Source: a virus. Taken from it: a stretch of DNA of 21,594 nucleotides. The notes beneath the pieces were generated by a model, which did no database searches, was not told the DNA's origin, and saw nothing but the letters and a program-made list of their open reading frames with translations. This document shows, piece after piece, positions 2,499-20,823 of this stretch; position 1 is the first letter of the stretch, and each line of letters opens with the position of its first letter. The DNA is taken from IMG/VR virus record IMGVR_UViG_3300025769_000993, positions 1 to 21,594 of that record; one strand, written 5' to 3'. The translations under genes and the position numbers were made by a program.

Positions 2499-3491
2499 TT
2501 ATTTATCTATATTAATAAATATCGTAGTATCTGTAGTTTGTGAAGTAGGAAGAGGTTGAGCTAATTTTCCAACTGCTATTAATTCTTGATTATCATTATA
2601 AAGTCCTATTGTAGTTACAAAAGGTGAAAAACTAGATCCTGTTACAAAATTAGAATATTGAGCACTTCCCGAATCTAAAATTTTATTTTGACCTTTAACC
2701 GAAGATGAAAGTAAACTAGGATTTAATGAATAATTAAATTCATTAGCTCTAATAGTACATTTATATTGAGTTTCAAAAATTTCAAATGAAGAACTAAAGG
2801 AACAAGTTATGTCAGTTGAATTAATAAAATTAACTACAAAATTTGTATCTGGGTCTCCATAACTAGCAGTACCATAACTTCCAGTACCATATAAATCTCC
2901 TAATTTTTCACTACCATCTCCACTAGGATTCCCAGTACTAGTAATTATAACCATTCCTTGATTATATATAATATTACCACATACTTGATTAGAAGAATTA
3001 ATTATATTTCCTTCTCCATCATCCGTTATAGATACCCCTCCTGTTTCCATATAAAATGTAGTAGGTTGTATTCTATTTCCATATAATTTAGAAGGAATAG
3101 AAACTACTCCTATTTTTCCATTAGGATATGAAAAAGTTGATGTTGCAGTTGGAAAATATTTCCTATAATATAAATCAGTTTGGGGGTAATTCCAATAACT
3201 ACCTGAAGTAGTATAAGAGTCTCCGTTAGAAGCTGATAAATGTAAATTATTAGAATAATAAAGATTTTTTATAGAATGGTAAACTAACCTAGCATATTCA
3301 CTACCAACTTCACCTGTAGTAAAATCAATATTAGGGTTAAATAGAGAAGCTGTTGGTTTAAATCCTAAAAGTCTATCAACTCCTCCATTAGATCCAGTTA
3401 AAGCAGAAGTTCCTTCAAAATAGAATCCTTTATTTACCTCAAACGGGGTAATTATTATATCTGAAGCTAGGAAGTTTTTGTAAGTACTCAT
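2499..3491 (-). CDS. Virion structural protein, paralogue of the upstream 346-aa protein
   Basis: This 330-aa Ser/Gly/Thr/Tyr-rich protein has no enzyme motif. Its C-terminal part (residues 245-313) contains [15 protein letters not shown] (245-259), [20 protein letters not shown] (291-310) and a following QPL. These match the C-terminus of the 346-aa protein encoded just upstream. A segment around residues 170-184 ([13 protein letters not shown]) resembles a beta-hairpin often found in phage appendage proteins. The position between baseplate proteins and the collagen-like fibre suggests a peripheral baseplate or fibre-attachment role. The start ATG at 3491 lies 3 nt after the previous stop (TAA TGG ATG), so translation is probably coupled. 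Virion role is inferred from context and composition. Confidence 0.6.
2515..2522 (-). promoter_or_regulatory. ATATTTAT motif upstream of the fibre gene
   Basis: This is an exact copy of the octamer found at several gene starts. It lies in the last codons of the 330-aa gene, 18 nt before the fibre ATG. Its function is unknown; it could be part of a promoter for the fibre gene or an AU-rich translation element. Confidence 0.3.
2556..2759 (-). other. Shared C-terminal module, copy B
   Basis: Residues 245-312 of the 330-aa protein share the order NEFNYS-NPS, then FVT-[TS]-[IV]-GLYND, then EL-[IL]-AV-x-KL with the C-terminus of the neighbouring 346-aa protein. The spacing between the two blocks is longer here because of an inserted Ser/Gly-rich stretch. 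Confidence 0.7.
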
Positions 3492-3494
3492 CCA

Positions 3495-4535
3495 TTAGAA
3501 ATCTAACTTTACTCTAATAAGGGCTTCTTTAGTAAAATCTTTTTTTAGAGGTTTAGATAATTTTGCTACAGCTAATAACTCATTTGCATCATTGTATAAT
3601 CCTACACTAGTAACAAAACTTTGAGGAGCATTTATAAATTGAGTATAAAGTACTTCACCTGTAGAACCTGATATAAATGAAGGATTATCGGAATAATTAA
3701 ATTCACTATTTCTTGCTCTAACAAAAACATAATCAGAAGTTATATTTTCTTGACTATTTAAAGTAAAGAATTGAGAAGATGAAATAAAATCAAATAATTT
3801 TGCAGGATTCTTGCTATTATTATTACTAGTATTATTAGTAGTTAACGAAATCCCCCCATCAGAAGTACCTAATTGTAAAGCAGAGTCATTTAATATAATT
3901 GCCCCAACATCAGGTAAAAATAATCCATATGAACCTGATATGGTCATACCATTTGCTACAGCTCCTGTTGGGGTAGCAGCTGAACCTATAGCACTTCCAT
4001 TTGAACCTGATACAATTTGAAATACTCTTCCAGCTTCATTAAAAGTTTGGGTAATAACATCATTACTATTATCAGTTAATCTAATGGTATCAGTTCCATC
4101 TGAAAGTCTTAGATCCATAGTTCCTGGAAGGAGATTACCCTTATATCTAGATCTATTTACAGATAAAGCATAAAAACTTTGAGTTACGGGAGTTACTCCT
4201 CCAAATACAAAACTATTATTTTCATCTCCTAAAACAATATTTTGCCATTGTCCAAATACTGTAGAAGTTGGGGATTTTCCATCAATCCCACTATCAAATA
4301 AAGCAGAACCCGAACCTTGAGAATCTCCAAAAGTAATACTATATTGAACTTCAGCACTAGGTAAAATTGAACTAGTTTGATATATATCTAAATAATAAGT
4401 ACCACTAGCTCCATTTTCTTGTACAGATGAAGTATAAATTGCTGTTAATGTAGGAACATTTCCAGTCCAAGCCCCTGCAGTAATGCTATCAGCACTAATT
4501 AAAAAATCTTCTGGGTCTAATCTTTTAAATGACAT
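3495..4535 (-). CDS. Virion structural protein, paralogue of the downstream 330-aa protein
   Basis: This 346-aa protein begins MSFKRLDPEDFLISADSI. Its C-terminus (residues 270-330) contains FVRARNSEFNYSDNPSF (271-287), then FVTSVGLYNDANELLAVAKL (307-326) and SKPLKK, matching the adjacent downstream protein. Mid-protein, GSYGLFLPDVGAIILND (201-217) resembles a turn-and-strand motif of phage appendage proteins. No catalytic residues are recognisable. It follows the 219-aa protein by 5 nt and is followed by its paralogue after 3 nt, so the three are surely cotranscribed. Proteins of this type recur in marine myovirus tail clusters as I recall, without assigned function. A peripheral baseplate or fibre-connector role is my inference. 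Confidence 0.6.
   Translation of the reverse strand: MSFKRLDPEDFLISADSITAGAWTGNVPTLTAIYTSSVQENGASGTYYLDIYQTSSILPSAEVQYSITFGDSQGSGSALFDSGIDGKSPTSTVFGQWQNIVLGDENNSFVFGGVTPVTQSFYALSVNRSRYKGNLLPGTMDLRLSDGTDTIRLTDNSNDVITQTFNEAGRVFQIVSGSNGSAIGSAATPTGAVANGMTISGSYGLFLPDVGAIILNDSALQLGTSDGGISLTTNNTSNNNSKNPAKLFDFISSSQFFTLNSQENITSDYVFVRARNSEFNYSDNPSFISGSTGEVLYTQFINAPQSFVTSVGLYNDANELLAVAKLSKPLKKDFTKEALIRVKLDF
3546..3728 (-). other. Shared C-terminal module, copy A
   Basis: Residues 270-330 of the 346-aa protein carry the same NEFNYS/GLYND/AVxKL module as its downstream neighbour. Placement at the extreme C-terminus in both suggests a common docking or trimerisation surface; that function is inferred. Confidence 0.7.
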
Positions 4536-4540
4536 TTATA

Positions 4541-5200
4541 TTAAGTTGTTGTTTTAGTAATAGTTACAGGAAGAGTAATACGCGCACCACTATCTCTACC
4601 TACTAATTGCAATGTAGTATTTAATTGAGTATTAGAACCAAATAATGTATTAACTGTAGTAGCGGTTAAATTTATAGTAGTACCTACAACGGTTTTAGAT
4701 ACATTAGTACCTATAGTTTCTGTAGAATTAAGAGCTTGAACTTGTTCAGTATTCACACCAACTCCATTAAAACTACTTAATACTCTAACATCTGCAATAG
4801 TAGCAGTGTATCCATTCTGTTCAAATACTTGATTATTACCTAAATAATTTAAAGTTTGAGGAGTAATAGCTAGTGAAGCACCTTGTTTTAAAGTAATAGC
4901 TGCAAATCCTGCATCTAACACAGGCATTTTAGAAGTACCTCTAGGTAAAGTTACTAACTTATATTTTAAATTTTGAGTAGTTTCTGGGAATGCTTCTAAT
5001 AAAGGCATATTTTCAAGTGCTTGACCATAAAAAGTGCTACCTGAAGGATGAGTTGGATTATAAAGTGTATAATCAATTTCATCGTCACTTAAAGCAAATT
5101 GAGTAATTCTAAAAGAACCATCACCTCTAGCTAAAAGTTCTCTACCTTTATTAGTTAAAATAGCATCTACTGTTACTACTGAGTTGTTTAAATATCCCAT
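4541..5200 (-). CDS. Conserved phage structural protein (VTVDAILTNKGRELLARGDG type)
   Basis: This 219-aa protein has a strongly conserved N-terminus: VVTVDAILTNKGRELLA (residues 8-24), then RITQFALSDDEIDYTLYN (31-48) and ALENMPLLEAFPE (61-73). I recognise this pattern as a protein family recurrent in T4-like marine phages, where it is annotated only as structural or hypothetical. The C-terminal half is Thr/Asn-rich and probably beta-structured. It lies among baseplate and fibre genes, so a baseplate-associated role is likely. The gene is preceded by a 34-nt gap containing a tandem ATATTTATAAAC motif ending 2 nt before the ATG. Family membership is from memory; the molecular function is not known to me. 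Confidence 0.65.
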   Translation of the reverse strand: MGYLNNSVVTVDAILTNKGRELLARGDGSFRITQFALSDDEIDYTLYNPTHPSGSTFYGQALENMPLLEAFPETTQNLKYKLVTLPRGTSKMPVLDAGFAAITLKQGASLAITPQTLNYLGNNQVFEQNGYTATIADVRVLSSFNGVGVNTEQVQALNSTETIGTNVSKTVVGTTINLTATTVNTLFGSNTQLNTTLQLVGRDSGARITLPVTITKTTT

Positions 5201-5201
5201 T

Positions 5202-5227
5202 GTTTATAAATATGTGTTTATAAATAT
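5202..5227 (-). promoter_or_regulatory. Tandem ATATTTATAAAC motif before the 219-aa gene
   Basis: Two identical 12-nt copies, ATATTTATAAAC on the minus strand, sit at 5227-5216 and 5213-5202, separated by two bases (14-nt period). The second ends two bases before the ATG at 5200. Each holds the ATATTTAT octamer. The T4 late-promoter core TATAAATA is present on the opposite (plus) strand only, so the motif is not a simple T4 late promoter for these genes. Confidence 0.45.
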
Positions 5228-5234
5228 TGTAATT

Positions 5235-6824
5235 TTAATTTTCTATTATACCTGCTTGTTTTAAATCAAAAATTAAATTTTCTTGTCTATTTTTTATTGT
5301 AGTAGAAGGGTATTGGGGTAAAATTATTCCTTGGAAAGGTTGAGTACTGTTAACATCATTATTTTTTTCAACATTTAAAATCAAATACCCTCCATCAGGT
5401 GTTATTCTATAATGAGTAAAATGATTCACTTCAGTATTTTCTTCTACTCGGGGAGTAACAGTTAAAAATAATTTACCTAAATTTCCCGGGGAAACATTTA
5501 TAATTTTATGAACTTTATTTTTATTAAATTCAAATCTAATTTCATCTCCTTTTTGGAAAGTAAAAGGAGTAATAATATCATTAAAAGTATTACCATCTCC
5601 AGAAGGATCAAATGATGCTACGGAACCCTCTAATTGAACCGTATAGGTTCCATCTGCAAAGTTCCCAAATTCTACAGAAGAAGTTAAAATTGAGTAACTT
5701 TTTATATTATTAGATACATCACCTGCAAAAGTACTATAATTTGGTTCAAAATAAGGAGCTGTAGTAGCATTTAATCCTATAACACTAACATCTCCTGGGG
5801 TGTATTCTTGTATAGCCTTAAATTTTCCTCCTCTAATTTTTATATTATGATAAGATGGTCCTATTTTCCTAATACTAATTCTAAATCTAGTTCCTTCAGT
5901 AAAATTACTAAATGGGCCAGTATTTACAAAAGGGTAATAATAGTCTCCATTAAGTTGACCTGTTGTAGGTGATAATACGGGAATATAAAAGTCTTTAATA
6001 TCTTCTTGAACAAATTCACTCCCATTCCATCTTTCTAATTTTATGTCTCCGGACACCCCACCAGCAATATTATCTAAATCCCACTCAACTTGTATATAAA
6101 CATTTCCTTCAAACCTCATTCTTGTCCCAGCTACTGTAGTATCTTGGAGAAGTTCATAGTATTGGCTACTTTCAAAATCTATCCATTCATAAGTCCCATT
6201 AGATTGGGAAATTGGAATTGCTTCATCAGTATAATTTACTACACGATAATTATATTGTGAAGGGGATGAATCGGGACCAAAATCTTGAGTACCGTCATCA
6301 TTAACTGTAAATTGTGCAGATACATTTTGAGCATCTGAAACAATATCTTGTCCTTGGATATTGTTAAAGCTCATAGTTGGTATATAGGCTCCAACTGAAG
6401 AACCTGTTTCAGTAACAGAAATTAGTTTTAAAGTTCCTACATCATATACAGTTTGAATTCCCGAAAGATTTTGGTTTAACACTGTAGCATTGTCTGCTCT
6501 TACTACAACAGTTTTATCTTTTTCAAAATTTTGGGTAGCATCTAATGCTGTAGTTGAACCCTCTGCGGGTTTGGAAGTATTTAATTCTCCATCAACTAAA
6601 TAAGTAATTTTAAATTGAGTTTTATCAAAAATTTCAGGACCTGTATCTCCTACTTCGTCAAAAACTGCAAAAAAAGTTTGATTTTTTTCAGCTACAGGTA
6701 ATCCTCCTAGTGCCCCTTTTACTTCTAACCCAGTTAACCCTGGTAATTGGATTTCAAGATCTTGATTCTGACTAGCTTGATTTAGACTAGGGAGTGATGG
6801 TGGTTGATTAGGATTAGTAGGCAT
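5235..6824 (-). CDS. Virion protein of unknown function
   Basis: This 529-aa protein has a Pro/Asn/Gln-rich N-terminal tail (residues 1-30, including PPSLPSLNQASQNQ) followed by beta-rich sequence. A stretch near residues 225-335, with YIQVEWDLDN, DIKLERWNGSEF and TRFRISIRKIG, alternates hydrophobic and polar residues like a jelly-roll or carbohydrate-binding-type sandwich, but I cannot name a family. The C-terminal segment HYRITPDGGYLILNVE followed by FQGIILPQYPSTTI is also beta-type. It lies between the 1550-aa mosaic protein and the 219-aa structural protein, so it is most likely a peripheral baseplate or fibre component. The ATG at 6824 is preceded by an A-rich leader (AAAAAATAAATT). Confidence 0.55.
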   Translation of the reverse strand: MPTNPNQPPSLPSLNQASQNQDLEIQLPGLTGLEVKGALGGLPVAEKNQTFFAVFDEVGDTGPEIFDKTQFKITYLVDGELNTSKPAEGSTTALDATQNFEKDKTVVVRADNATVLNQNLSGIQTVYDVGTLKLISVTETGSSVGAYIPTMSFNNIQGQDIVSDAQNVSAQFTVNDDGTQDFGPDSSPSQYNYRVVNYTDEAIPISQSNGTYEWIDFESSQYYELLQDTTVAGTRMRFEGNVYIQVEWDLDNIAGGVSGDIKLERWNGSEFVQEDIKDFYIPVLSPTTGQLNGDYYYPFVNTGPFSNFTEGTRFRISIRKIGPSYHNIKIRGGKFKAIQEYTPGDVSVIGLNATTAPYFEPNYSTFAGDVSNNIKSYSILTSSVEFGNFADGTYTVQLEGSVASFDPSGDGNTFNDIITPFTFQKGDEIRFEFNKNKVHKIINVSPGNLGKLFLTVTPRVEENTEVNHFTHYRITPDGGYLILNVEKNNDVNSTQPFQGIILPQYPSTTIKNRQENLIFDLKQAGIIEN

Positions 6825-6846
6825 AATTTATTTTTTAACTTTTTAT

Positions 6847-9800
6847 TTAATTTTGATAAGGAATATTAAAATCCGGAGATGATACTTTACTTCCCTTATA
6901 CCTCCCATTTACCCATCCCCTATTATAATAATTAGAATCTTGAATTGGGGCTTTTAAAGCAGCACTAGTTTCAATTAAAGATTGATTTACGGGGATTATC
7001 CCTCCCGAATAATCTATATCCTGATAAATAGAAGAAAGTCTTGAATTAGTTGCATTATTATAATTATAAGCCAAATTTTCTAATTCTTTTTGTGCACTTA
7101 AAGGAGTATCAATAATCCTTCCTATTATATCAACCCCCTGTACTAAATATCCCCCACTTGATGCTTGAGTTGTCCCACCACCAGCTATAGTAAATAAATA
7201 ACTACTAGGATTGGGATTAGTTCCTTCTAAAGCTACTCTTAAAGTAGCAAAAGTCCCAGGGTTAGCAGGAAGATTATCATCATAAATAGTATTACTTACA
7301 GTAAAAGTATATGGAATTCCTTCAGGTTGCACAACAGAACCTAAACTTCCTGCATCAGTAACAGTTAAAGTAAATGTACTTCCTTGTGAAGCACTATTTA
7401 AAGTATTTATAAAATTAGGTACGCCTCCTTGAAGAGAAGTACCAAATACTAATTCAATTACATTGGAAGTACTATCTCGTAATACAAAAACACTTCTTGC
7501 CATAGTAAATTCATTAGTTGCTGACCATAATCCTAAATAATAATCAAAATTCTCAGGATTATCAAAAATTCGAACGCCATAATTGCTTGATTGAATATAT
7601 GTATTAGAATATTCTATTTGACTTCCTGTAGGGATATTTCCTAATTCTCCATTTGTAACAAGTAATTTACTTCCACTTAATTCTCCATCATAAAATTCAT
7701 TTTGAGAAGAATGGACTAAAGTAGTAGAACCACTTATAGTTTGAACAGTTTCATTCCAAATTTGGCTATTATAGGAAGGATTATTATGGAGTGTAGATTG
7801 AGAAAAAACAACTTTACATCCCCCAATTTGCTCAGCAGGACTTTCCGCATCATTATCGCTTATAGCAATAGATAAAGATTCACCTGGTAAAATTGTTAAA
7901 TTCTTTTTTTCTACATTAATAGTTCCTCCTACAGAAACATTTCCTAATGAAGCAGAGAAAATAGCTCCTGCTTTTCTTTTATCCATAAATCTAAAAGAAG
8001 AAGTAGTAAATCTTTTATCTGAGAAAATGTGGAATTCACCTTCATCGACATCATTAATAAATACTTCTCCTTCAAAAGAAAAATCAAATTGAATAGGAAT
8101 ATTTGATGTATTTTTAAAAGGATAACGAACTTGTCCTCCACTACCTTCATCATCAATAATAAATCCTCCATCACTTCCACTTATGCCATAACTTCCAATA
8201 GGTGTTACACCAAAACTATTAATGACTGTTAAAGTTCCAATATCTCTTCGTATCACATAAGCATTAGCTCCTGTTAAACTAATAAGAGAATTATTAGCAG
8301 GAGATTGATTTAGATTAGTAAAAGCACCTGCTTCACCTCCAATAATATTACCTATTGAAGAAGAAGCATACACAGAACCACTATATTCATGTTGGGAACT
8401 TTCAACTTGAGCAGGACGTTGTTTATTTCTTTCTAATAAATGTTGTTTAATTACAACTCCCGTCGCTAAACTAGATTTTGCAGGAACAAAATCTTTAATC
8501 ATTTTAAAGAGAGAATTATCAAAATATTTAATAAGTCTTATATAATCATTCCAATTATAATTTGTATAATACTTACTAAAATAAGAATCTCGTAATTTAT
8601 CTAACCCAGGATATGAAGTAACGGATTCTGATATTTGTCGGGGATCTCCAATATAATCCCCTATATTAAAGTATCCAAGACTAGAATTTATATCATCATT
8701 GATTTCATTTTGGGGAGAAAAAGCAATTTCTACTAAATTTATATCTTTAGTATAACTTCCACTTTCAGGTGTTAAATAATTTTGTTGTATACTTCTTAAA
8801 GGAGATAAAGTACTTCCTGAAGGGAAAGAATGGAGTTGGGTTCTTATTTTTTCTGATATTCTATTTTTTATTCCAACTGCAGGTTGGTCATAATAATATA
8901 CTTCGGTTTGTGATGGGAATGTTACTGAAGAACCTATAGTATATGTACTAGTACTATTACTAAAAGATTGAGTAACATATGAACCTGTTATTTTAGGATG
9001 GATTGAATTATAAGTTCCTGATCCTGTATCTATAAGTTCACTTCCAAGGGGAGCTCTAAAAGCTAAATTTTCTGCTGAAGAAGAATAATTACTACCTTCT
9101 ATTGAATAAGGATTCATAACAAAATCATAAAAAGTATTTTCACTTAGAGAAACGTTATAAAGTCTTAATTCTTGATATGAACCTGTTAACCCATAATAAT
9201 CATTACTATCTAAAGTAACAGCAGATGAACCATCTTTAGAAGGAAGATATATATTAGTTGAAGCATTCCAATCTAAAGAAGAATCAGAATTAGTAGAAGA
9301 AGTAGTATACCCTATCTTAAAACCTTCATTCCCATCATATATTTTACTAGCAGCTTTTAGAGTAAATTCACTACTTCCTGAGGTGATACTAATTCCCCAC
9401 CAATTTCCATCATAAAAGGGGGCATTAACACTTGTTACTTTTGTTCCATTTGACCAATATGCTAATTCAGCATAATTTCTAGATTGAGAAGTTATTGAAC
9501 CTGAATATGAACCACTAGCATCCCATGATCCTGTTCTAGAAAGGGTTAGATAAGCATTAACAGATTCTCCTGTATCTGTTATTTTACATACTGTTCTAAA
9601 ATTTTGTTCATTATCACTAGTAGGAATCTCTGGTTTAAATCTAAATAAGACTTCTTTAGGAGTATTAGTATTCCAATCAGATTTCAACCTAAACCCAGCA
9701 TCAATTCTATCCGTTGTACTACTTTCAGAAATATAGGTGTAATAATTAAATGTATTTTGAAAATAATCCCAATCATTAGAATTATTTTTATCTTTACCCC

Positions 9801-11860: not shown

Positions 11861-12975
11861 CCATTTATTACTTTAAAATAATAATCATTATCTAGTACTA
11901 AAACTTCGTTATTTATAGGTACTTTAAGCAAAATTTGATAATATCTTTCGGGTTCAAAACCATTCATATATAAATTAAAATAGCTGCTGGTAGCATCAGC
12001 ACTAATTCTAGTATAGTCATCATTAAAGTCTACAATAAATTCATTACTATCTAAATCTTTTATAGCATAAGATGAAGACTCAGGAAGATAATAATTTGTA
12101 GTATAAATTGATGAAGTTTGATAAGTTCTTGAAGGAAAACGAGGACGACAATTAATTTTAAATTTATGAATACTTCCACTCCTAAAAGTTCCAGGATTGT
12201 TATCTAAACTAGCTACTAGTTCTGAGGTGTTAATAATAGTAGTTGATGAAGATCCTGTACTAAATGAAAAATCATCCCATTGAAATTGTAATTCGGGAGG
12301 ATAAATAGTATTAGTATCTATTGAGTAAAATTGAATTTTAGCCTGTTTATATAAACCACCAATTTCGTCATTTTTACTTTGTTTTATAATAAATCCATCA
12401 TTGTTAAAACCTCCTAAGCTATTTGAAGCACTATACCATGTTTTTATAGTATTAGTGACATCAATATTTAAATCTTTTGTGCTAGTATAATTGTATATTT
12501 TAGATTGGGTAACATTCAAACCTAAAGCAGACCCAGTATACCAAGTTCCTCCTCCCTCTACCTCAGAATAAGAACCCGTAGAATATGCTTCAAATCCTGT
12601 AGTTGTCCAAGCATCTGATCCTGAATAAGCTTTATACACCCAACTAACTCCATTATCTGTTTCAGGAGAATCTGTAAATCTCCCAGTTCCCATGTTCCAA
12701 GAGCCTGATACAGGGTAAATTTCTAATGTAGTATCAGTATTAAGATTTTCTATATTAGATATATAATTTTTTAAATTAACTTGAAAATTAGACCCACTAA
12801 TTTTATCATCTATAATAGAATTAATTTCATCCTGAGAAAACTGGATGAGATATCTACTTAAATAAGCATCTGTATCAGTAATAGTTTCTATAATGGAATC
12901 TAAGCCTGTGTTTCTAGCGGGGTATCTAGAATAGATTGTAGCATCTTTAGTGGGAAATATTTTGTATACTGCCAT
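11857..12975 (-). CDS. DNRLRE-like baseplate-associated protein
   Basis: This 372-aa protein begins AVYKIFPTKDATIYSRYP, the usual opening of DNRLRE-type beta-sandwich domains (an 'i.P..DatI' strand). YLSRYLIQFSQDEI follows at about 38-51. SWNMGTGRFTDSPETDNGVS fits the 'W.eG..r....t..G.sW' strand pair, and LNIDVTNTIKTWYSASN (residues 168-184) with GFIIKQS completes the family pattern. Known members are bacterial cell-surface and phage appendage proteins. A second beta-rich half (about 230-372) is unassigned. It follows gp6 after 3 nt and overlaps the next gene by ATGA. In T4 gp7 and gp8 come after gp6; here this unrelated-looking protein occupies the first such slot. The start context CTATAAAAAATG lacks Shine-Dalgarno. 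Confidence 0.6.
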   Translation of the reverse strand: MAVYKIFPTKDATIYSRYPARNTGLDSIIETITDTDAYLSRYLIQFSQDEINSIIDDKISGSNFQVNLKNYISNIENLNTDTTLEIYPVSGSWNMGTGRFTDSPETDNGVSWVYKAYSGSDAWTTTGFEAYSTGSYSEVEGGGTWYTGSALGLNVTQSKIYNYTSTKDLNIDVTNTIKTWYSASNSLGGFNNDGFIIKQSKNDEIGGLYKQAKIQFYSIDTNTIYPPELQFQWDDFSFSTGSSSTTIINTSELVASLDNNPGTFRSGSIHKFKINCRPRFPSRTYQTSSIYTTNYYLPESSSYAIKDLDSNEFIVDFNDDYTRISADATSSYFNLYMNGFEPERYYQILLKVPINNEVLVLDNDYYFKVING

Positions 12976-12978
12976 TTT

Positions 12979-14850
12979 TTATAGTGTTGTTGCTCTACCT
13001 CTAATATCAGTATCAGGGAATTTAACTTCAAAAATTGAGGGGTCTAATGAAGGATATATTACATTATTTAATGTTGCCCCTTTAATATCATAAGCATATT
13101 CCGAATAAGAACCCCCATTTTTATTAGTTATATTAATTTGATTTACAGTTTGTACTCCTTCTACTTTATCTAATAAAATATATAAATCTCTTAATAAAAT
13201 AGGCTGATTAATTTGAGCGTTATTAATATCAAAATAATTCTGGAGGGAAGTAATGCATTTAGATATAACTTCATTTGAATTATAGTTAGGGAGAATTAAC
13301 AAATCAAAATCAACTCCTATATTAATTATAAAGGCATCTTTTATTCTTATAGAGTCATTAATACTCCTATATTGAGATAAATAAGTTGAAAGATTTTTCT
13401 TTAAAGTAGTAGAAGATGTAGTTAATTGTTGGGAAGCATTGTATGCAAGAATATATAAATCTAATATTTTTAATCCTTCTTGAAAATTTAAAGAAGATGC
13501 TTTTTGAGGTTCAATGTAAGCTTTTGCTAATACCCCTAACTCAGAAGGCATACTTAGTGCTCTAACTAAATAATCTTCTTGAGTTACAGTTCTTAATTGA
13601 GCTCCAAAATTTCCTAAAGAATTATTTCTTATTTCTTCAACAGAATCTCCATCACTCCCTCCTATTGAGGCAGATGGGTTTGTAATCAATACGGAATCAT
13701 ATATATCTTGAGCAATTCCCCCTGTATTATTTACATTACTTTGTTGAAAATTTATAGTAGCAGATACTATATTATTAATAATATTAGAAGAAACATTAGA
13801 TTCTACTCCACCTCCAACTAAATACCTTACAGTTAAAGTAGTATTAGAAGGAGCAATCCCATAAGTATTAGTATATAAAAAGTTTTGAGGATCAAAAGCT
13901 GTTTTAGTTTTGTTTCTAGTATAAGGAAGTCCTATTCCTACATTATTAGGATTAGGGGTTATAACTTCAGTAATATTATTTTCATTATTCCCAGCTCCAA
14001 ATTGAATACTCAATTGGGTTTTCGATTTAAACCTTGAAACAAATCTTCTAGGAACTTTTTCTAAATTTAAAATATAAGGTACTTCTCCTTGATCATTAGA
14101 AGTATTAGGATCTATGTTATTTTTATTTTGAATATATTTAAAAACAGTTTCTTGAGATAAATAAGGAACCTCAGTCCAAGTATTTCCATCACTATCTGTT
14201 ATATCTAATATTCCAACTATATTAGTGTCATTTATTTCTACAGTAGGATATTTATCTACTTCAGTAAAAGTAAAACTTTCTGTTTTTATAGTAGCAGAAA
14301 TAGCTTTTCTAGTCTTTTTTAATAAAAATCTATTAACATCATTTCCTGAAATACTGTGTACAAAAACTTCTGTAGGATCTTGAGAAGAAGAAACACTAAA
14401 ATCAATAGGATCTTGAATTAAAAATTTAGTTGAATTACCTAAAGTAGAAGAAACTGAAGCATTTTCAGAAATTAATAAAGCATAACTATAATCAGGAACA
14501 TAAGTCCCTGAACCATCATCTATAGCTGGAACTTGTTGGTATATTTCTAGATTAGCTAAAGAGGTTCCTGTTACTTTGGGTTTATATCCCATCATGTAAG
14601 CTAATTCATATAAATTAGGTTCTTGGCGAGCATATTGTAAAAAGGTTTCTTGAACCTGATTATCTAAGTAAAAAGATAACACGTCCCCTACATAAGAAGC
14701 CATTTCTATAAACATAGAACCAGGGGAATTTTGGCTAAAATCGTTATAAGTTGTAGGGAAATAAGTCTTAGAAAATTCAATAAGACTATTTCTAAGGCTA
14801 TCAAAATCCCTATTAATATACTTTATATCTTTATTTATACCTTCAGCCAT
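12979..14850 (-). CDS. gp6: Baseplate wedge protein gp6 (Baseplate J-like)
   Basis: This 623-aa protein is close in size to T4 gp6 (about 660 aa). The N-terminal region matches the gp6/Baseplate-J pattern: YINRDFDSLRNSLIEFSKTY (residues 11-30), then NSPGSMFIEMASYVGDVLSF (41-60), then VQETFLQYARQEPNLYELAY (66-85) and MGYKP. The central region near 390-435 has the characteristic GGSDGDSVEEIRNN and QLRTVTQEDYLVRA motif. gp6 dimers form the iris-like ring that links wedges around the hub in contractile tails. The gene lies directly after gp25, which binds gp6 in the wedge core; the two are coupled at 14850 through TAATG. The conserved gene pair makes this one of the firmest calls in the window. 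Confidence 0.88.
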   Translation of the reverse strand: MAEGINKDIKYINRDFDSLRNSLIEFSKTYFPTTYNDFSQNSPGSMFIEMASYVGDVLSFYLDNQVQETFLQYARQEPNLYELAYMMGYKPKVTGTSLANLEIYQQVPAIDDGSGTYVPDYSYALLISENASVSSTLGNSTKFLIQDPIDFSVSSSQDPTEVFVHSISGNDVNRFLLKKTRKAISATIKTESFTFTEVDKYPTVEINDTNIVGILDITDSDGNTWTEVPYLSQETVFKYIQNKNNIDPNTSNDQGEVPYILNLEKVPRRFVSRFKSKTQLSIQFGAGNNENNITEVITPNPNNVGIGLPYTRNKTKTAFDPQNFLYTNTYGIAPSNTTLTVRYLVGGGVESNVSSNIINNIVSATINFQQSNVNNTGGIAQDIYDSVLITNPSASIGGSDGDSVEEIRNNSLGNFGAQLRTVTQEDYLVRALSMPSELGVLAKAYIEPQKASSLNFQEGLKILDLYILAYNASQQLTTSSTTLKKNLSTYLSQYRSINDSIRIKDAFIINIGVDFDLLILPNYNSNEVISKCITSLQNYFDINNAQINQPILLRDLYILLDKVEGVQTVNQINITNKNGGSYSEYAYDIKGATLNNVIYPSLDPSIFEVKFPDTDIRGRATTL

Positions 14851-15272
14851 TACAAATTATAATTTATTTCTACTGTATCTTCATTGTTATTAAACACATT
14901 ATAAGACATAACTACTTTCAAAGTATTATTATTGACATCTTCTAATACTTCTAAATTCTTTAATTTCACTTCAGGAAAAAATAATGACAAATTATCTATA
15001 ATTCTTTTTTTAACTAAATCAAATGTATTTGAAGTTAATTGTTCAAATAATATATCTTTTAAACCTCCCCCATAATTAGGGTTTAAAGGTCTTTCTCCTA
15101 AATTTGTAGTAAAAAATATAATTAAATTAGCTTTAATTTGTTCCTGAGTAGTATAATTTAATTTAAAGGGAACAGATCCTGAAGTAGCAAAAGTGGTAAA
15201 AGGATAAGCCAAACCAACAGCATTTCTGGGTTGTTGATCAATAGGAAATATGTTAGTTTGCTTAATTGCCAT
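14850..15272 (-). CDS. gp25: Baseplate wedge protein gp25
   Basis: This 140-aa protein is close to T4 gp25 (132 aa). The signature of the GPW/gp25 family is present at residues 59-77 (GERPLNPNYGGGLKDILFE), preceded by TTQEQIKANLIIFFTTN (41-57). gp25 is a small wedge-core protein that nucleates sheath assembly with gp6 and gp53. Translation is coupled on both sides by TAATG junctions: the preceding 109-aa gene ends at 15272 and gp6 begins at 14850. The N-terminus carries the expected PFTTFATSGSVPF segment. High-confidence call. Confidence 0.9.
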   Translation of the reverse strand: MAIKQTNIFPIDQQPRNAVGLAYPFTTFATSGSVPFKLNYTTQEQIKANLIIFFTTNLGERPLNPNYGGGLKDILFEQLTSNTFDLVKKRIIDNLSLFFPEVKLKNLEVLEDVNNNTLKVVMSYNVFNNNEDTVEINYNL

Positions 15273-15601
15273 TATTTATTATTCATTAACCCCATGATTT
15301 GGTCCATATTAACCTCACCACTAGGAAGATCAGATCCTGGCATTACTCCTTGGGGGTTAAATGCTTGGGGAACGTTTTGGGAATTAAAAGAAGAAGCCAT
15401 ATCACCTAATATATTTTGATAAGCTGCTCTTTTTTCATTTGAACTCATTGAGGGACCATCAACTACTTTTTGTGGTTGAATACTTTCTACAACTGTTTGT
15501 TTTGGAGCACGTACGGCTTCAAGAAGTATATCTTTAATTTCTTCTTGAATAGCCTCTTTAACTGCTTGTTTAATTAATGATTTTAATACGTTTTGTTTCA
15601 T
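15272..15601 (-). CDS. Small baseplate-region protein of unknown function
   Basis: This 109-aa protein has an amphipathic, charged N-terminal helix (LKSLIKQAVKEAIQEEIKDI, residues 6-25), a variable linker, and a C-terminal part rich in Asn, Gln, Pro and Met (NSQNVPQAFNPQGVMPG, 73-89; DQIMGLM near the end). No known domain is recognised. It sits between the 302-aa virion protein and gp25, so an assembly factor or minor baseplate protein is likely. A 17-nt gap with the ATATTTAT motif precedes its ATG at 15601, so it could be the first gene of a transcript unit running into gp25 and gp6. Its stop overlaps the gp25 start (TAATG). Confidence 0.5.
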   Translation of the reverse strand: MKQNVLKSLIKQAVKEAIQEEIKDILLEAVRAPKQTVVESIQPQKVVDGPSMSSNEKRAAYQNILGDMASSFNSQNVPQAFNPQGVMPGSDLPSGEVNMDQIMGLMNNK

Positions 15602-15606
15602 TATTT

Positions 15607-15614
15607 ATAAATAT
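15607..15614 (-). promoter_or_regulatory. ATATTTAT motif before the 109-aa gene
   Basis: Exact octamer in the 17-nt gap, followed by AAATA and the ATG at 15601. On the minus strand the overlapping TATAAATA (15609-15602) also matches the T4 late-promoter core, but it abuts the start codon, leaving no leader. Confidence 0.4.
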
Positions 15615-15618
15615 CTAA

Positions 15619-16527
15619 TTAATTTGCTCTTAAATTATCTCTATCTATCACTAGTTTTAATTCTTGAATCAATATATCAGGTGTACCAGTAAATGACAAT
15701 TCAGTTTGCAATAAAGTAATTCCATCTTGATTTTGTGCAAGAGCTCTTCTTCTATTAACTGTAGAAGAAAAAGGTACTTCTTCTATTTTAAAAACAAATC
15801 CTTTATAAGCAGTATCTATTAGGCTTTGTTCTTCTTCGTCTACATCTTGCTCAATAAAACTTATAATTTCGGGGGATATTGGAATTAATTTTGATTGAAC
15901 ACCTTCTTCATTTTGAACACCTTCTTCATTTACTTCAGAACATTCTAATATAGCAGCATCTAGTGCTTCTATAGTACAAATTAATTCTCTTAAAACATTA
16001 GCAAATAATTTAATAGCTACATTTGCAGAAACTAATCCTCCTACTATAGGAACTAGTCTTTGAGCCCCATCCCCTTTAAATTTTGCTTTTTCAATTAATT
16101 GTAAAGAACCATCAATAGCGGAGTTAGCTAAAGCAGGGATTGGGAGGGGAACAACAGCACCTGCAGTAATACCCCCTGCTGCTATCCCAGATGCTACGTT
16201 AATACCTGTAATAATACCCCTAAGACCCCTTTCTGCTCCTGATAAGTTTTTTGATAGTCTATCTACTTTATTGTAAACTTTGTTTAATTGCTCTGTTATA
16301 TTATTTCTAGTATTAATAAAATTATCAATTTGAGGTTGTGTAGGACACACCCCTTCTGCAAAATTAGATAGTATTTCTATAATTTTATTAGTATACTTAG
16401 CTTTTAATTTACTTACTTCTCTATTAATTGCTTCTACGAGTTTATTTATACTAGGTAATGGAGGTAAATTCTCTAAAATACTTTTAGTATCATCTGAGGG
16501 TGGTATTTGACAAAAATCACTAGCCAT
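15619..16527 (-). CDS. Baseplate-hub-region virion protein with hydrophobic Gly/Ala stretches
   Basis: This 302-aa protein starts MASDFCQIPPSDD. Residues 20-100 are predicted helical and charged. Two low-charge hydrophobic stretches follow: residues 104-137 (GIITGINVASGIAAGGITAG, then VVPLPIPALANSAI) and 158-180 (LVPIVGGLVSANVAIKLFA). A perfect 18-bp duplication gives NEEGVQ twice at 200-211. The C-terminal part has RRRALAQNQDGITLLQTELS and then a conserved-looking FTGTPDILIQELKLVID. It lies between the gp5-like hub protein and the 109-aa/gp25/gp6 genes and is coupled to the former by TAATG at 16527. The hydrophobic stretches would suit a membrane-interacting or tape-measure-like component, but the overall family is unknown to me. 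Confidence 0.55.
   Translation of the reverse strand: MASDFCQIPPSDDTKSILENLPPLPSINKLVEAINREVSKLKAKYTNKIIEILSNFAEGVCPTQPQIDNFINTRNNITEQLNKVYNKVDRLSKNLSGAERGLRGIITGINVASGIAAGGITAGAVVPLPIPALANSAIDGSLQLIEKAKFKGDGAQRLVPIVGGLVSANVAIKLFANVLRELICTIEALDAAILECSEVNEEGVQNEEGVQSKLIPISPEIISFIEQDVDEEEQSLIDTAYKGFVFKIEEVPFSSTVNRRRALAQNQDGITLLQTELSFTGTPDILIQELKLVIDRDNLRAN
15895..15930 (-). repeat. Perfect 18-bp tandem duplication
   Basis: The 18-nt unit TTGAACACCTTCTTCATT (plus strand) occurs twice head-to-tail at 15895-15912 and 15913-15930. It adds six in-frame codons (NEEGVQ) to the 302-aa protein. Identity of the copies implies a recent event. Confidence 0.95.
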
Positions 16528-17732
16528 TATTTAGTAAAATTACGATTTGACTTAGCTCCACCTTGTCCTGATTTGCTTAGAGTAGATTTAACACTATTTA
16601 AAGTACCTACTATATTATTAGCTAAAGGAGTTGAAGCAGGTTTATAAGGGGATGGTTCTTTTCCATAAACCGTAAAAAACTGGATTAAACTATTAATCAT
16701 AGTATTTAGTTGGGTTATAGTTATATCTCCTTTTAAGAGGGGTTCGGTTGCATTTTTATCCCCTAAATATATTTTATCAGAAGATACATAAGTTTCTTTA
16801 GAATCTACATTAACTGAATTAACTGCATTTAAATTAATAGATTTATTTGAAGTTAATAAAATATCACTAGTTTTAGTATTAAAAACTAACCTCCCAGAAT
16901 TAAGAATAATTTGGTTTTCTTGATATTCTTTAATTCCTATAGGAGCAGTAGTATAACTATTATAAGTAGTACTAGAAGCATTTAATAAAGTAGATTGATC
17001 TTGTATTAAAGATATAGTTGATTGATCTTCATTTATATCTTCAGTTATAGGTACCCATCCTTCTTCACTAGTATTACTAGGCTGACCATTTCGAATTGTT
17101 AAAGAGGGAGTATTATTATTATTACTAATAAAACTTCCTAATCTAATTGAATTTCCCCATCTTCCCTCAATTAAATTATCACCAGCAAAAAACCTTAAGG
17201 GGTGGGTATTAATTTGTTCATTAAATCCCTTTCCTAAGTCTATATCAGTTGAATTATCATATACTCTTCTTACATTTTGAGAAGTCCCTCCTTCAGTATT
17301 TTGGTAATCTTGTTGAGAATTTTCATTATTAGCTAAAGTAGAATCCGGAAGAGCATTATGATGTTGGCTATTCCACAAATTTATAGGGGGAAGATAATAA
17401 GCACTGGTAATATTAGTATTAGTTTGGGTATCTGTAGAAGCTAAAAATACTAAAGAAACTAATTCATTAATTAAAGGATAAAATTTATTGTTAGAAAATA
17501 AGGGTTGAGCCGTATTAACTGTTTTTTTAGCTGATGGAAATTGAACTGAATCATAAAATATGGTACCTACACCATTCCATTCTCCATATTCTTCAAAATT
17601 AGGATGGGTATCATCTAATATAATATCTATTACTCTAACTGATACTACCTCAGCTGAAGTGTTAGGTTGAAGAGTAGATTGAGGTTCAGTAGTTCTTGTA
17701 AGAGCAGAAATACCATAAAATTGCTGAGGCAT
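16527..17732 (-). CDS. gp5-like baseplate hub/spike protein (OB-fold)
   Basis: This 401-aa protein carries an N-terminal OB-fold-like segment (VRVIDIILDDTHPNFEEYG, residues 32-50, then GVGTIFYDSV). The conserved motif GDNLIEGRWGNSIRLGS (184-200) and LTIRNGQ (211-217) are typical of baseplate hub/spike OB domains. The C-terminus (275-335) has regular beta repeats (SGRLVFNTKTSDILLTSNKS; NLNAVNSVNVDS; KIYLGDKNATEPLLKGD) resembling a needle-like spike stem. No lysozyme domain is visible between them, unlike T4 gp5 (575 aa). It would cap the tube and pierce the envelope. It is coupled to both neighbours by TAATG junctions. Confidence 0.72.
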   Translation of the reverse strand: MPQQFYGISALTRTTEPQSTLQPNTSAEVVSVRVIDIILDDTHPNFEEYGEWNGVGTIFYDSVQFPSAKKTVNTAQPLFSNNKFYPLINELVSLVFLASTDTQTNTNITSAYYLPPINLWNSQHHNALPDSTLANNENSQQDYQNTEGGTSQNVRRVYDNSTDIDLGKGFNEQINTHPLRFFAGDNLIEGRWGNSIRLGSFISNNNNTPSLTIRNGQPSNTSEEGWVPITEDINEDQSTISLIQDQSTLLNASSTTYNSYTTAPIGIKEYQENQIILNSGRLVFNTKTSDILLTSNKSINLNAVNSVNVDSKETYVSSDKIYLGDKNATEPLLKGDITITQLNTMINSLIQFFTVYGKEPSPYKPASTPLANNIVGTLNSVKSTLSKSGQGGAKSNRNFTK

Positions 17733-18073
17733 TACTTTTTATCGTCTTTAAATTTCTTTACTTCATTCAATAACTGTTGTTTTTCATCTTCTGTCATACC
17801 AAAATTACCATCATCTGTTCCTTCTTGTTGGACTGCACGTTGGATAATAGTAGCCATTTTGATAAGTTGCTCATCATTTTTAACAGAAATTTCTAAATAT
17901 TCTTTTAAAAGCGGCACAACTAAAGTAGCATCCCCAATATCTTGAATTAAAGGTTTCAATTCAGATATTAAAGTAGAAATTTGCTCTTCTTTTTTCTTTT
18001 GATTAAGATAAATCTCTTCTAAAATATCAGAGAATTTTTTCTTACCAAATATTTTTTTGTCTAACTGCCCCAT
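17732..18073 (-). CDS. Small helical protein preceding the hub gene
   Basis: This 113-aa, mostly charged and probably all-helical protein has FSDILEEIYLNQKKKEEQIS (residues 14-33) and LVVPLLKEYLEISVKNDEQL (51-70), and ends in a Lys/Asp-rich tail (KKFKDDKK). No domain is recognised. Its stop overlaps the gp5-like gene start (TAATG at 17732), so it is probably translated with it and may help hub assembly. A 17-nt gap with ATATTTAT precedes its ATG at 18073, making it the apparent first gene of the baseplate block directly after the late sigma gene. Confidence 0.5.
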   Translation of the reverse strand: MGQLDKKIFGKKKFSDILEEIYLNQKKKEEQISTLISELKPLIQDIGDATLVVPLLKEYLEISVKNDEQLIKMATIIQRAVQQEGTDDGNFGMTEDEKQQLLNEVKKFKDDKK

Positions 18074-18077
18074 ACTA

Positions 18078-18085
18078 ATAAATAT
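18078..18085 (-). promoter_or_regulatory. ATATTTAT motif before the first baseplate-block gene
   Basis: Exact octamer in the 17-nt gap between the gp55-like gene and the 113-aa gene, followed by TAGT and the ATG at 18073. With the preceding T it reads TATATTTA, similar to the Bacteroidota -7 element TAnnTTTG but lacking the final G. Confidence 0.4.
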
Positions 18086-18090
18086 AGAAA

Positions 18091-18813
18091 TTAATCAAAA
18101 TCTATATACCCATGTTCTTTATAAAAAATAAAATTTTCTTTAAATATATCTCCTAATTGATCTGCAACACGGGTAATATGGGGTGTTTTAACATCTACCA
18201 TTTCCCTAATATAAAAATAAATAGCTTTTTTATTAAAAATATCTATATTTTCTCTTTTTCTAAAAACCTCTAATATAGCATCTGCAACTTTAGCATCTTT
18301 TTCTTTGGGAAAAAGAGTATAAATATTACTAGTACAATAATCTAAATACTCATCTAAAAAATCTGATAGATCATCTTTTTCTGTAGGATTATAATCTAAA
18401 TCATATGAATAATCTAAATTATGGTGTAATTCTTCAATTGGAGCTTTATCTATTCTTTTTTTATAGTTTTGTGTATTTTGTATAATTAAATATCGCTTAG
18501 CGATTGTCCCAAAATATGAGAATGCTTTTGCTCCGCGTGTAGGATCAAATAAATGAATTTTACTTAATAAAAATGTAATTACTTCATGTTGTAGATGTTC
18601 AATATTATCCACTTCTGTATAGTAAAATTTAAAAGTATGGATTATATTCTCGGTAAGTTTAAAAAAAGCATAGTGAATATCTTTACGATAGATTTCACTA
18701 CGCTCTTCGGGGTCACCGCAATTATTATATCTTACTATAGCATCTTCTGTTGCTTGTGTAAAATATTGATTTTTAGTCTTTTTTTTTCTTTTTCTTTTTA
18801 CTGGTTCGCTCAT
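18091..18813 (-). CDS. gp55: Late-transcription sigma factor, T4 gp55-like
   Basis: This 240-aa protein has a strongly basic N-terminus (KRKRKKKTKN, residues 6-15). Its core, residues 71-120, aligns in pattern with T4 gp55 region 2: IEHLQHEVITFLLSKIHLFD (71-90), PTRGAKAFSYFGTIAKRYLI (91-110), then QNYKKR. In T4 the corresponding part recognises the late promoter and binds host RNA polymerase. T4 gp55 is 185 aa; here a longer C-terminal portion (about 150-240), with the acidic DDLSDFLDEYLDYC and an HTH-like PHITRVADQLGDIF (211-224), is added. It overlaps the upstream TM gene (ATGA). The gene lies directly before the baseplate block it would be expected to activate. No gp33-like coactivator or sliding clamp is seen in the window. 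Confidence 0.75.
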   Translation of the reverse strand: MSEPVKRKRKKKTKNQYFTQATEDAIVRYNNCGDPEERSEIYRKDIHYAFFKLTENIIHTFKFYYTEVDNIEHLQHEVITFLLSKIHLFDPTRGAKAFSYFGTIAKRYLIIQNTQNYKKRIDKAPIEELHHNLDYSYDLDYNPTEKDDLSDFLDEYLDYCTSNIYTLFPKEKDAKVADAILEVFRKRENIDIFNKKAIYFYIREMVDVKTPHITRVADQLGDIFKENFIFYKEHGYIDFD

Positions 18814-19088
18814 AATTTTTCTACCCTAAAATTGGATAGAACTCTCTGAAGTTCTTTGATTTGTTCATACATGAACCCTATCTCATCATCACTCTTAAAA
18901 ATTCCTCGTTCGTCGATCTTTTTAAGCCTTTCATCTGAAAGTTCTATTATTTTACTAAATTGATCTAAATATGTTATATAACCTGCAAGAATATCTTCTT
19001 GTTTTTCGTTTTTACGAAGAAGGTTAAAGGTTGTAAACCCGAGGGCTACAACCAATACACCTAATATGCTTATAATAATAATTTCCAT
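18810..19088 (-). CDS. Small single-pass membrane protein with coiled coil
   Basis: This 92-aa protein has one N-terminal hydrophobic segment (IIIISILGVLVVALGFTTF, residues 3-21) followed by a basic RKNEK and an amphipathic helical tail (YLDQFSKIIELSDERLKKID, 40-59; DEIGFMYEQIKELQRVLSNF, 68-87). Topology is most likely N-out/C-in. Similar small membrane/coiled-coil proteins recur in marine T4-like phages as I recall, without a known function. It is embedded between the HD hydrolase (TAATG overlap) and gp55 (ATGA overlap), so it is tightly co-expressed. It could be a spanin-like or membrane-anchoring factor, but there is no specific evidence for either. Confidence 0.65.
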   Translation of the reverse strand: MEIIIISILGVLVVALGFTTFNLLRKNEKQEDILAGYITYLDQFSKIIELSDERLKKIDERGIFKSDDEIGFMYEQIKELQRVLSNFRVEKL

Positions 19089-19858
19089 TATAGTTTATCA
19101 AATAAATCTTTAAGTCCTTTACTTTCAAGTTGTGAAAGTGCTTTGTCTTTTGTCGATTTTTTTGTTTCTTTCGACAATGTAAAATTCTCTTCCTGGGCAG
19201 GCACGGGATTTTTAAACTTAGGTAACCACTCACGCTCAAATTCAATTCTTGCTGCCATTAAATCTGCCTGATGAAGAATAAATGGGAGTGAAGTACGTGG
19301 TTTTTGTTCGGGCATAAAAGCATGAAGATACTTTTTATTTGCTTCATCATACAAACCGTCATGAGTTTGGATTGCTAGCATCTCATTAAATGAATATTGA
19401 ACACCATGAGATTGAAGCATAAATAAACCTCTATCAGGAACTGAAGCGAATGGGACTTGTTTATTAAACATGTAATCCTCACCTAATTTTTCCTTCCTCC
19501 ACTTATCAGTCTGGGGGATGTATGATTCGTTTTCTTCATCACCCATTTTACCTAAATCATGGTTAATAGCAGAGAATACTAATTCTTCTTCCGTGAAAGT
19601 AGACATATCAGCTCCTTCAGCACTCCACAACTCTGCTTGTTTGCGAGCGCAACGAACAACTCGATTCACGTGTTCAACATAACCTCCTGGGAAAGCATTA
19701 TGATATTCTTTTTTATGAGCTGCAGGCATCATCATAATACGGTCCGCATATTTCTCATAAAATTCAAGAAGTTTTTCTTTACGAGGTGACGAGATATAGG
19801 TGTTAATATTCTCGCAGAATTCTTCCCAATTGGATTGAATTTGTTCAGCTGTAAGCAT
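19088..19858 (-). CDS. HD-domain phosphohydrolase
   Basis: This 256-aa protein carries a complete HD signature: GGYVEHVNRVVRCARKQAE (residues 58-76, H63), then LVFSAINHDLGKMG (93-106, H100-D101), then QTHDGLY (164-170) and HQADLMAARIEFE (196-208, D199). These are the metal ligands of HD hydrolases, which act on nucleotides, cyclic nucleotides or phosphoesters. Substrate and reaction cannot be read from the sequence. The C-terminal tail (about 215-256) is Lys/Glu-rich and probably flexible. It sits in the overlapped cluster with gp55, which is unusual for pure nucleotide metabolism. Coupled by TAATG at both ends. Its base composition is visibly less A+T-rich than the tail genes. Confidence 0.78.
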   Translation of the reverse strand: MLTAEQIQSNWEEFCENINTYISSPRKEKLLEFYEKYADRIMMMPAAHKKEYHNAFPGGYVEHVNRVVRCARKQAELWSAEGADMSTFTEEELVFSAINHDLGKMGDEENESYIPQTDKWRKEKLGEDYMFNKQVPFASVPDRGLFMLQSHGVQYSFNEMLAIQTHDGLYDEANKKYLHAFMPEQKPRTSLPFILHQADLMAARIEFEREWLPKFKNPVPAQEENFTLSKETKKSTKDKALSQLESKGLKDLFDKL

Positions 19859-20052
19859 TATACTCGGTTTTGTTCGTTAGGAGTTATAGGTTCACGTTCA
19901 ATTGCAGCCTTAAGTTCCTCAACTAAATCTTCACAAGCTACCTTAGCTTCATTAACTTCTTGTCTATTTCCTCTTCCATTATGGAATTCAATATGTTTTA
20001 ATTTTGCCTCAAGATTATTGAGTTTTTTCTGGATGTGTTCTCTAAAATACAT
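19858..20052 (-). CDS. Small charged coiled-coil protein
   Basis: This 64-aa protein is one or two amphipathic helices (YFREHIQKKLNNLEAKLKHI, residues 2-21; EAKVACEDLVEELKAAIERE, 35-54) joined by a short Gly/Asn/Arg-rich loop (NGRGNRQ). No family is recognised. The ATG at 20052 follows CTATAAAA. Its stop overlaps the HD hydrolase start (TAATG at 19858), so it may be a partner or regulator of that enzyme. Length and composition are compatible with a real gene, and the overlap supports it. Confidence 0.5.
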   Translation of the reverse strand: MYFREHIQKKLNNLEAKLKHIEFHNGRGNRQEVNEAKVACEDLVEELKAAIEREPITPNEQNRV

Positions 20053-20075
20053 TTTTTATAGATTTGATTTTGAAG

Positions 20076-20513
20076 TTACGAACTAGATTTTGAGGAATCA
20101 AGGAGTTTTTTAAGGAAAGCACACTTTTCATATTCCTCACCTTTCTCAAAATGTTTTATTGATAAATTTAAAGCATCTTTTAATTTAAAAGTATTTTCTT
20201 TTTGTAAAACCTTTAGACAATATTTGTCTTCTGGATTAAATTTAGAGATATAATCCCATGCTCTATTGTAGAGTAAATGTTCTCCTGCAGCTTCGATATC
20301 TTTTATATCAAGTTTAGGATCTGCTGATTGAAACATTTGGATTAAACCTTTTTGGTAACTAAGATGGTTATTAATAAGTTTGGAAAACATTCCTAAATAA
20401 TATCTAGGATGGTTTTCTTCCATATCCTTAATAAATTTAGGTGTAGGGAAATCATTTTCATCCCTATCAGAATTAAAGGTACCAAATATTTTATTAATGT
20501 CCATGCCGGACAT
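20076..20513 (-). CDS. Hypothetical protein with UVR-like C-terminal motif
   Basis: This 145-aa protein's C-terminal region, LNLSIKHFEKGEEYEKCAFL (residues 115-134) plus KKLLD, resembles the UVR interaction motif of UvrB/UvrC and of ClpP-adaptor and McsA-type proteins ('..A...EdYE.Aa.lrD.I'). The N-terminal three-quarters (FPTPKFIKDMEENHPRYYLG, 22-41; IEAAGEHLLYNRAWDYISKF, 73-92) is helical without a recognised domain. The ATG at 20513 overlaps an ATATTTAT motif; an in-frame ATG at 20504 (residue 4) is an equally likely start because it leaves a 7-nt spacer. The motif could allow contact with a host repair or proteolysis factor, but this is only a resemblance. Confidence 0.55.
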   Translation of the reverse strand: MSGMDINKIFGTFNSDRDENDFPTPKFIKDMEENHPRYYLGMFSKLINNHLSYQKGLIQMFQSADPKLDIKDIEAAGEHLLYNRAWDYISKFNPEDKYCLKVLQKENTFKLKDALNLSIKHFEKGEEYEKCAFLKKLLDSSKSSS

Positions 20514-20571
20514 AAATATAATTAACCTCTAAATTATCAATAGTAGTATTTACAGTCCAATAATTTTTCAT
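20494..20571 (-). CDS. Possible 25-aa coupled small ORF
   Basis: ATG at 20571 overlaps the stop of the 62-aa gene (ATGA), and the frame runs 25 codons (MKNYWTVNTTIDNLEVNYIY, then VRHGH) to a TAA at 20494, overlapping the start of the 145-aa gene. It fills nearly all of an otherwise 54-nt gap. The junction is the same type used by real genes here, but the length gives little statistical support. It could instead be a leader peptide coupling the two larger genes. Confidence 0.3.
   Translation of the reverse strand: MKNYWTVNTTIDNLEVNYIYVRHGH
20512..20519 (-). promoter_or_regulatory. ATATTTAT motif at the 145-aa gene start
   Basis: Exact octamer in TATATTTATG, overlapping the first possible ATG (20513) and 7 nt before the second in-frame ATG (20504). 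This arrangement argues for the second ATG if the motif marks the leader. Confidence 0.35.
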
Positions 20572-20756: not shown

Positions 20757-20777
20757 TGTGTAAATATTATTGAAATT

Positions 20778-20802
20778 GGGGGGAGGTTTTCTTCCTCCCC
20801 CC
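20778..20802 (-). terminator. Perfect 9-bp GC hairpin, likely terminator
   Basis: GGGGGGAGG (minus strand, right side) pairs with CCTCCCCCC across a 7-nt loop AAGAAAA. This is far more stable than anything else in this A+T-rich sequence. It lies 20 nt after the DUF932 gene stop. On the minus strand it is followed by AATTTCAATAATATTT, only moderately U-rich, so it may terminate imperfectly or act as an mRNA 3'-end stabiliser. On the plus strand the downstream sequence TCAAACAA is not U-rich, so the orientation favours the minus strand. Confidence 0.65.
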
Positions 20803-20823
20803 TCAAACAACATGGCAGTGCTC

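Follow-up and report, generated by a model that had tools for sequence, protein, structure and literature searches.

The octamer ATATTTAT recurs on the coding strand of a 21,594-nucleotide stretch of viral DNA (IMG/VR record IMGVR_UViG_3300025769_000993, positions 1 to 21,594; hereafter the window), mostly a short distance ahead of gene starts. It is very probably the core of a mainly late promoter of T4-like phages of Flavobacterium-type hosts, a promoter that consists of a -10 element only and is most likely read by a sigma factor of the phage itself. The candidate reader is a gp55-like (late) sigma factor of 240 amino acids (aa) encoded on the minus strand at 18091-18813, which together with the core of the host RNA polymerase would recognise ATATTTAT without the help of a -35 element. 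We infer this transcriptional role from the placement of the octamer, its strand bias, its specificity for particular gene boundaries, its conservation across genera, the lack of a conserved -35 element in the related Flavobacterium phage immuto (NC_055915), the segregation of late-type sites from a host-type class in that phage, and the presence of the sigma-like gene.

All 22 genes of the window lie on the minus strand, and an exact search recovers the seven copies that an earlier note had listed on that strand (2515, 5206, 5220, 15607, 18078, 18319 and 20512) together with the single copy on the plus strand (14248). The total of eight compares with a mean of 8.4 in shuffled sequence, so the word is not over-represented in the window, and the earlier note was right to place the signal in the clustering of the copies. 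Six of the seven coding-strand copies lie within 35 nucleotides (nt) of a start, as had been claimed, and among all octamers in the upstream regions ATATTTAT ranks first, the next being present in three copies. Dinucleotide shuffles of these regions contain 0.5 copies on average and 4 at most, and none of 2000 shuffles reaches six. Classical E. coli-type -35/-10 sites, 110 in the window against 110.9 expected, are uninformative.

The octamer was followed through a set of 42 dereplicated contigs that includes the window and totals 556 kb; gene starts of unannotated contigs come from a simple longest open reading frame (ORF) caller. Two long but partial contigs, G001 and G002, also served for comparison. 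Intergenic copies number 145 in the sense and 17 in the antisense orientation (binomial 2e-26), a count in which copies are not independent by descent, most relatives being fragments of one clade. The copy at 18078-18085 (minus strand), a predicted late promoter, directly follows the stop codon of the sigma gene. Gene 17732-18073 (minus strand, 113 aa), whose ATG lies 4 nt further on, is the first of a predicted late unit, and its product shares 62% identity over 90 aa with immuto gp117. All 41 dereplicated orthologues of this gene have ATATTTAT within 40 nt upstream, most at 4 nt; in most contigs the octamer is retained after the sigma stop codon as the flanking bases drift, and in the remaining contigs it lies slightly further upstream of the gene, still within 40 nt of the start. 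The copy at 15607-15614 (minus strand) is predicted to be a late promoter as well and is separated by 5 nt from the start codon of gene 15272-15601 (minus strand, 109 aa). This gene opens a predicted late baseplate unit, in which a gp25-like and a gp6-like baseplate gene come next. The octamer is present upstream of 39 of 39 orthologues (at 5 nt in 37), and its columns in the alignment reach 1.8-2.0 bits, most flanking columns being lower. Two further orthologue groups carry it upstream in 16/16 and 9/12 cases. For gene 20076-20504, behind the predicted promoter copy at 20512-20519 (minus strand), the proportion is 14/35. The earlier note had this last copy overlapping a start codon, which holds for the ATG of the longest ORF at 20513; in several orthologues the sequence is ATATTTAT-N7-ATGGAC, which makes 20504, 7 nt away from the octamer, the probable true start. 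Starts internal to operons mostly have no upstream copy at all (0/28-40 across orthologue groups). This restriction to fixed gene boundaries is promoter-like and unlike what would be expected of a general ribosome-binding element.

Conservation extends beyond the clade of the window. Gene 4541-5200 (minus strand, 219 aa), whose product is 75% identical to immuto gp107, is preceded by two tandem copies on the minus strand, a leadered one at 5220-5227, predicted to be a late -10-type element and separated from the ATG by 19 nt, and a near-leaderless one at 5206-5213, 5 nt from that ATG. The boundary octamer stands at 19 nt in the window and in G001, 17 nt in G002 and 20 nt before gp107 in immuto. 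The 5206 copy was not found in G001, G002 or immuto and is therefore lineage-specific. In immuto gp117 the octamer is located 14 nt before the ATG, and gp117, gp107 and the genes at 1346 and 48985 all have an octamer at the same boundary in immuto and in G001 or G002. Four boundaries with ATATTTAT are common to immuto and G001 (immuto genes at 1346, 48985, 78906 and 90688), and a fifth positional counterpart, that of gene 15272-15601 at immuto 81525, reads CTATTTAT 4 nt before the ATG.

The immuto genome, from a phage of Flavobacterium sp. LMO8, contains two classes of site. ATATTTAT itself occurs 31 times in sense and 4 times in antisense orientation, and in the intergenic regions the core is wider, [AC]TATTTAT, with A or T as the usual next base; it precedes the genes for terminase, gp20, PhoH, a virion protein, sheath, tube, baseplate hub and tape measure. 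Across 32 positions upstream of 36 such sites no base exceeds 60%, and there is no conserved -35 element or TTG. The second, early-type class has the form TTG-N20-TATATTTAG, with a wider box TAT[AC]TTTAG, and matches the host sigma-A pattern; all 23 of its sites have the TTG at a fixed distance. The virion half of the genome (78-160 kb) holds 26 of the 36 intergenic late-type sites and one early-type site, and the other half (0-78 kb) holds the remaining ten late-type and 25 early-type sites (Fisher p 4e-8). The full early-type form, GTTG-N20-TAT[AC]TTTAG-GTATCAATAATTAAAAC, stands before small hypothetical genes, mainly at 60-76 kb, and judged by its sequence looks like a set of host sigma-A early promoters. 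Long intergenic gaps before small ORFs in G001 and G002 have a recurring TTCGTATATTCATGGRGTAAAGTTACAGCGAC (G001 reversed coordinates 58098, 80711, 81292 and 83509), which probably represents the early promoters in the clade to which the window belongs.

These two classes bear on the strongest alternative, namely that ATATTTAT is a degenerate TAnnTTTG box used by the unmodified host holoenzyme, with the phage sigma factor being irrelevant. In its favour, nATATTTAT aligned on its TTT resembles TAnnTTTG (PMC9723704) and the immuto early box TATATTTAG differs from the motif by only a few bases. However, the preceding T is not conserved, motif sites have no TTG upstream where the early-type sites all do, and the two classes occupy different halves of the immuto genome, which makes the host-box explanation unlikely. 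The earlier proposal of a phage-specific promoter element is well supported by the fixed boundaries, the genome-wide strand specificity in relatives, the segregation from the host-type class and the co-occurrence with a gp55-like sigma gene.

The distance from the octamer to the start codon raises a second alternative. Across the 42 contigs the end of the octamer lies 4 nt (n=56) or 5 nt (n=40) before the ATG, with the remainder mostly at 7-25 nt, and spacings of 4-5 nt account for 9 of 19 motif genes in G001 and 8 of 13 in G002. The Flavobacterium sigma-A box occupies positions -12 to -5 (PMC9723704) and the T4 late box approximately -13 to -6 (the -13 is from PMC2988020 and the remainder is set by the 8-bp length). 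At the common spacing of 4-5 nt, an octamer placed in either register would put the 5' end of the transcript on the A of the ATG or one base before it, so that leaderless or nearly leaderless transcripts are predicted, and to judge by the spacing such mRNAs would come from roughly half of the units that bear the motif in the clade of the window. They would arise in hosts whose translation does not depend on Shine-Dalgarno pairing; in F. psychrophilum, the one Flavobacterium mapped, only 5.5% of the mRNAs whose starts were mapped lack a leader (PMC9723704). The suggestion of short-leader or leaderless transcripts made in the earlier note thus fits the modal spacing in this clade, but it is not general, as there is room for a leader at many sites and in immuto taken overall (2 to 84 nt, with one further site overlapping the start codon).

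The same near-fixed spacing would also suit an AU-rich enhancer of translation initiation that replaces Shine-Dalgarno pairing for Bacteroidota ribosomes, and A at -12 and -6 is favourable in F. johnsoniae (PMC6847099). This alternative, which the earlier note had entertained, is less likely again: nearly all operon-internal starts in these phages do without the octamer, the spacing in immuto varies widely, and the T positions are conserved in addition to the A positions. A translation element was rejected mainly on account of the boundary rule and the variable spacing. The octamer is also not known to be complementary to the 16S tail, which counts against such a role.

A conserved 8-mer at defined boundaries could equally be the operator of a DNA-binding regulator next to otherwise unrecognised promoters. 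This is very improbable, given that the octamer is non-palindromic and strongly oriented, and that at several immuto sites terminator-like hairpins end 4-24 nt upstream of the motif and leave little space for a separate promoter. The pairing of terminators with motif sites was dropped as a statistic, because a terminator within 45 nt is present at 9 of 36 late sites against 17% of intergenic positions, no clear excess. Chance in AT-rich DNA, which would account for the total count, has a negligible probability and is refuted for the set as a whole by the placement shuffles and by the unbroken conservation in two orthologue groups (41/41 and 39/39).

The preferred reading, a late promoter read by a phage sigma factor, depends on the identity of the product of ORF 18091-18813. 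Relatives of this product occur in 363 matched IMG/VR stretches, and it shares 47% identity over most of its length with immuto gp118, which is annotated as 'hypothetical protein'. Nine of 13 family members match Sigma70_r2 (best 1.8e-4), and nine of 13 match PHROG 234, 'late sigma transcription factor' (best 0.0011). A profile comparison with seven gp55 proteins of T4-like phages and cyanophages aligns approximately 100 residues (probability 62, E 7.5e-5). A sequence search of the PDB with the family profile gave no match, and the top Foldseek matches of an AlphaFold model (pLDDT 68) are mostly sigma factors, though weak, with none below E 0.001 in the PDB. The protein is described here as a putative gp55-like sigma factor, and strict membership of the gp55 family is not claimed.

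Several observations weigh against this reading. The matches behind the sigma assignment are remote and for the most part below threshold, and the structure model is of mediocre quality. The T4-type clamp PF02916, the only clamp family searched for, is found in T4 but not in immuto or in the partial contigs G001 and G002, so that the T4 activation mechanism would not be reproduced. Some early-looking genes bear the motif, at ten immuto sites below 78 kb that include the one of GroES, and immuto gp23 has no motif. Finally, in Microcystis phage Mel-JY01, whose sigma homologue is more distant (approximately 38% identical), the stretch that was examined has no strand bias, and neither Mel-JY01 nor a 484-kb uncultured phage has a clear enrichment of the late motif. 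Mel-JY01 has Shine-Dalgarno-like leaders, and its orthologue of gene 4541-5200 (at 33027; 40% identical) has a copy of ATATTTAT a few tens of nt upstream.

Three exact copies and one variant in the window remain. The copy at 2515-2522 (minus strand) is contained in the 3'-terminal part of gene 2499-3491, and the ATG of gene 847-2496 follows 18 nt further on; no ATATTTAT match was found upstream of the following genes in G002, and its function is uncertain and may be none, the copy having arisen by chance. The copy at 18319-18326 (minus strand) is internal to the sigma gene, where it encodes Ile-Tyr before LFPK, and is lost where relatives change these residues; judged by its codons it is probably coding-driven and not a promoter. 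The sole antisense copy (14248-14255, plus strand), within the gp6-like baseplate gene, may also be due to chance. The one-base variant that had been noticed before a 62-aa gene is indeed present, as ATATTTAC at 20760-20767 (minus strand), 3 nt before the ATG at 20756; relatives drift at this position between ATATTTAT, ATATTTAC, ATATTTAA, ATATTTAG and none of these, and the variant is taken as degenerate or as belonging to a different class. The 62-aa frame is part of an 81-aa ORF (20568-20813, minus strand), whose start is probably 20756, behind a terminator-like hairpin formed by GGGGGGAGG...CCTCCCCCC.

By remote homology, the window represents the tail module of a phage that is T4-like and related to immuto. 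Its genes include gp6-like and gp25-like baseplate wedge genes, a tail fibre gene, a GIY-YIG (SegE-like) gene and a DUF932 gene, and the gene order of the baseplate region agrees with that of immuto; a search at the nucleotide level found no close relative in the sequenced phages. The tail fibre gene 847-2496 contains collagen-like Gly-Thr-Ser-Gly repeats at approximately 2041-2225 (minus strand). Gene 385-834 (minus strand) carries the PHROG label 'NAD synthetase' as opposed to the SegE-type GIY-YIG endonuclease indicated by Pfam, and the 'NAD synthetase' of immuto bears the same PHROG label.

It is proposed, with about an even chance of being correct in all its parts, that in a whole Bacteroidota T4-like lineage an unannotated gp55-like sigma factor reads a -10-only TATTTATA promoter without a T4-type clamp, and that in one clade the start site falls on the start codon, so that many of the late transcripts have no leader and the core of the promoter also serves as the sequence conserved in front of the gene. 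The open-licence literature in PubMed Central yielded no ATATTTAT or TATTTATA phage promoter and no late promoter of a Bacteroidota phage, including those of the T4-like phages of Flavobacteria. With the motif, late units can be mapped directly in hundreds of metagenomic contigs, and the group of phages gains a marker. In a cultured phage, it opens to test how gp55-type sigma factors change their promoter sequence, and whether late mRNAs with no leader or almost none are common in a host phylum whose translation does without Shine-Dalgarno pairing.

In T4, a late promoter consists of an 8-bp element at -10, and the -35 region is not conserved (PMC2988020). The element described here would be a functional analogue of the T4 late promoter TATAAATA, whose reader is gp55, in that it is an AT-only -10 element of 8 bp that has no conserved -35 element and stands before virion genes, and in that the phage encodes a putative sigma-region-2-like protein (PMC2988020). 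Unlike in T4, the core TATTTATA, represented by ATATTTAT in the clade of the window, is the reverse complement of TATAAATA, in keeping with the statement of the earlier note that the octamer is not the T4 late core in the transcribed orientation. Sense TATAAATA is not enriched in immuto (15 sense against 30 antisense) or in the intergenic regions of the relatives (21 against 90), and a T4 element in sense orientation was rejected. The sigma factor also differs from that of T4 in its length (240 aa against approximately 185) and its extra C-terminal helices, no T4-type clamp was found, and many sites are predicted to be leaderless. Distant relatives of T4 likewise have gp55-type late elements predicted in silico, such as cyanophage S-PM2 (NATAAATA) and Aeromonas phage Aeh1 (PMC2984593; PMC2988020). 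However, S-PM2 retains ATAAATA in the transcribed orientation and Aeh1, as described, differs from T4 at -13/-12 only, whereas the window motif is oriented in the opposite direction to both. With the Bacteroidota sigma-A promoter (TTG ... TAnnTTTG) the motif shares A-n-TTT, a presumed box position of -12 to -5 and likely the same polymerase core (PMC9723704). Motif sites differ from it in lacking the TTG at -33 and the final G, and in immuto the host-type promoters form a separate class in the early half of the genome.

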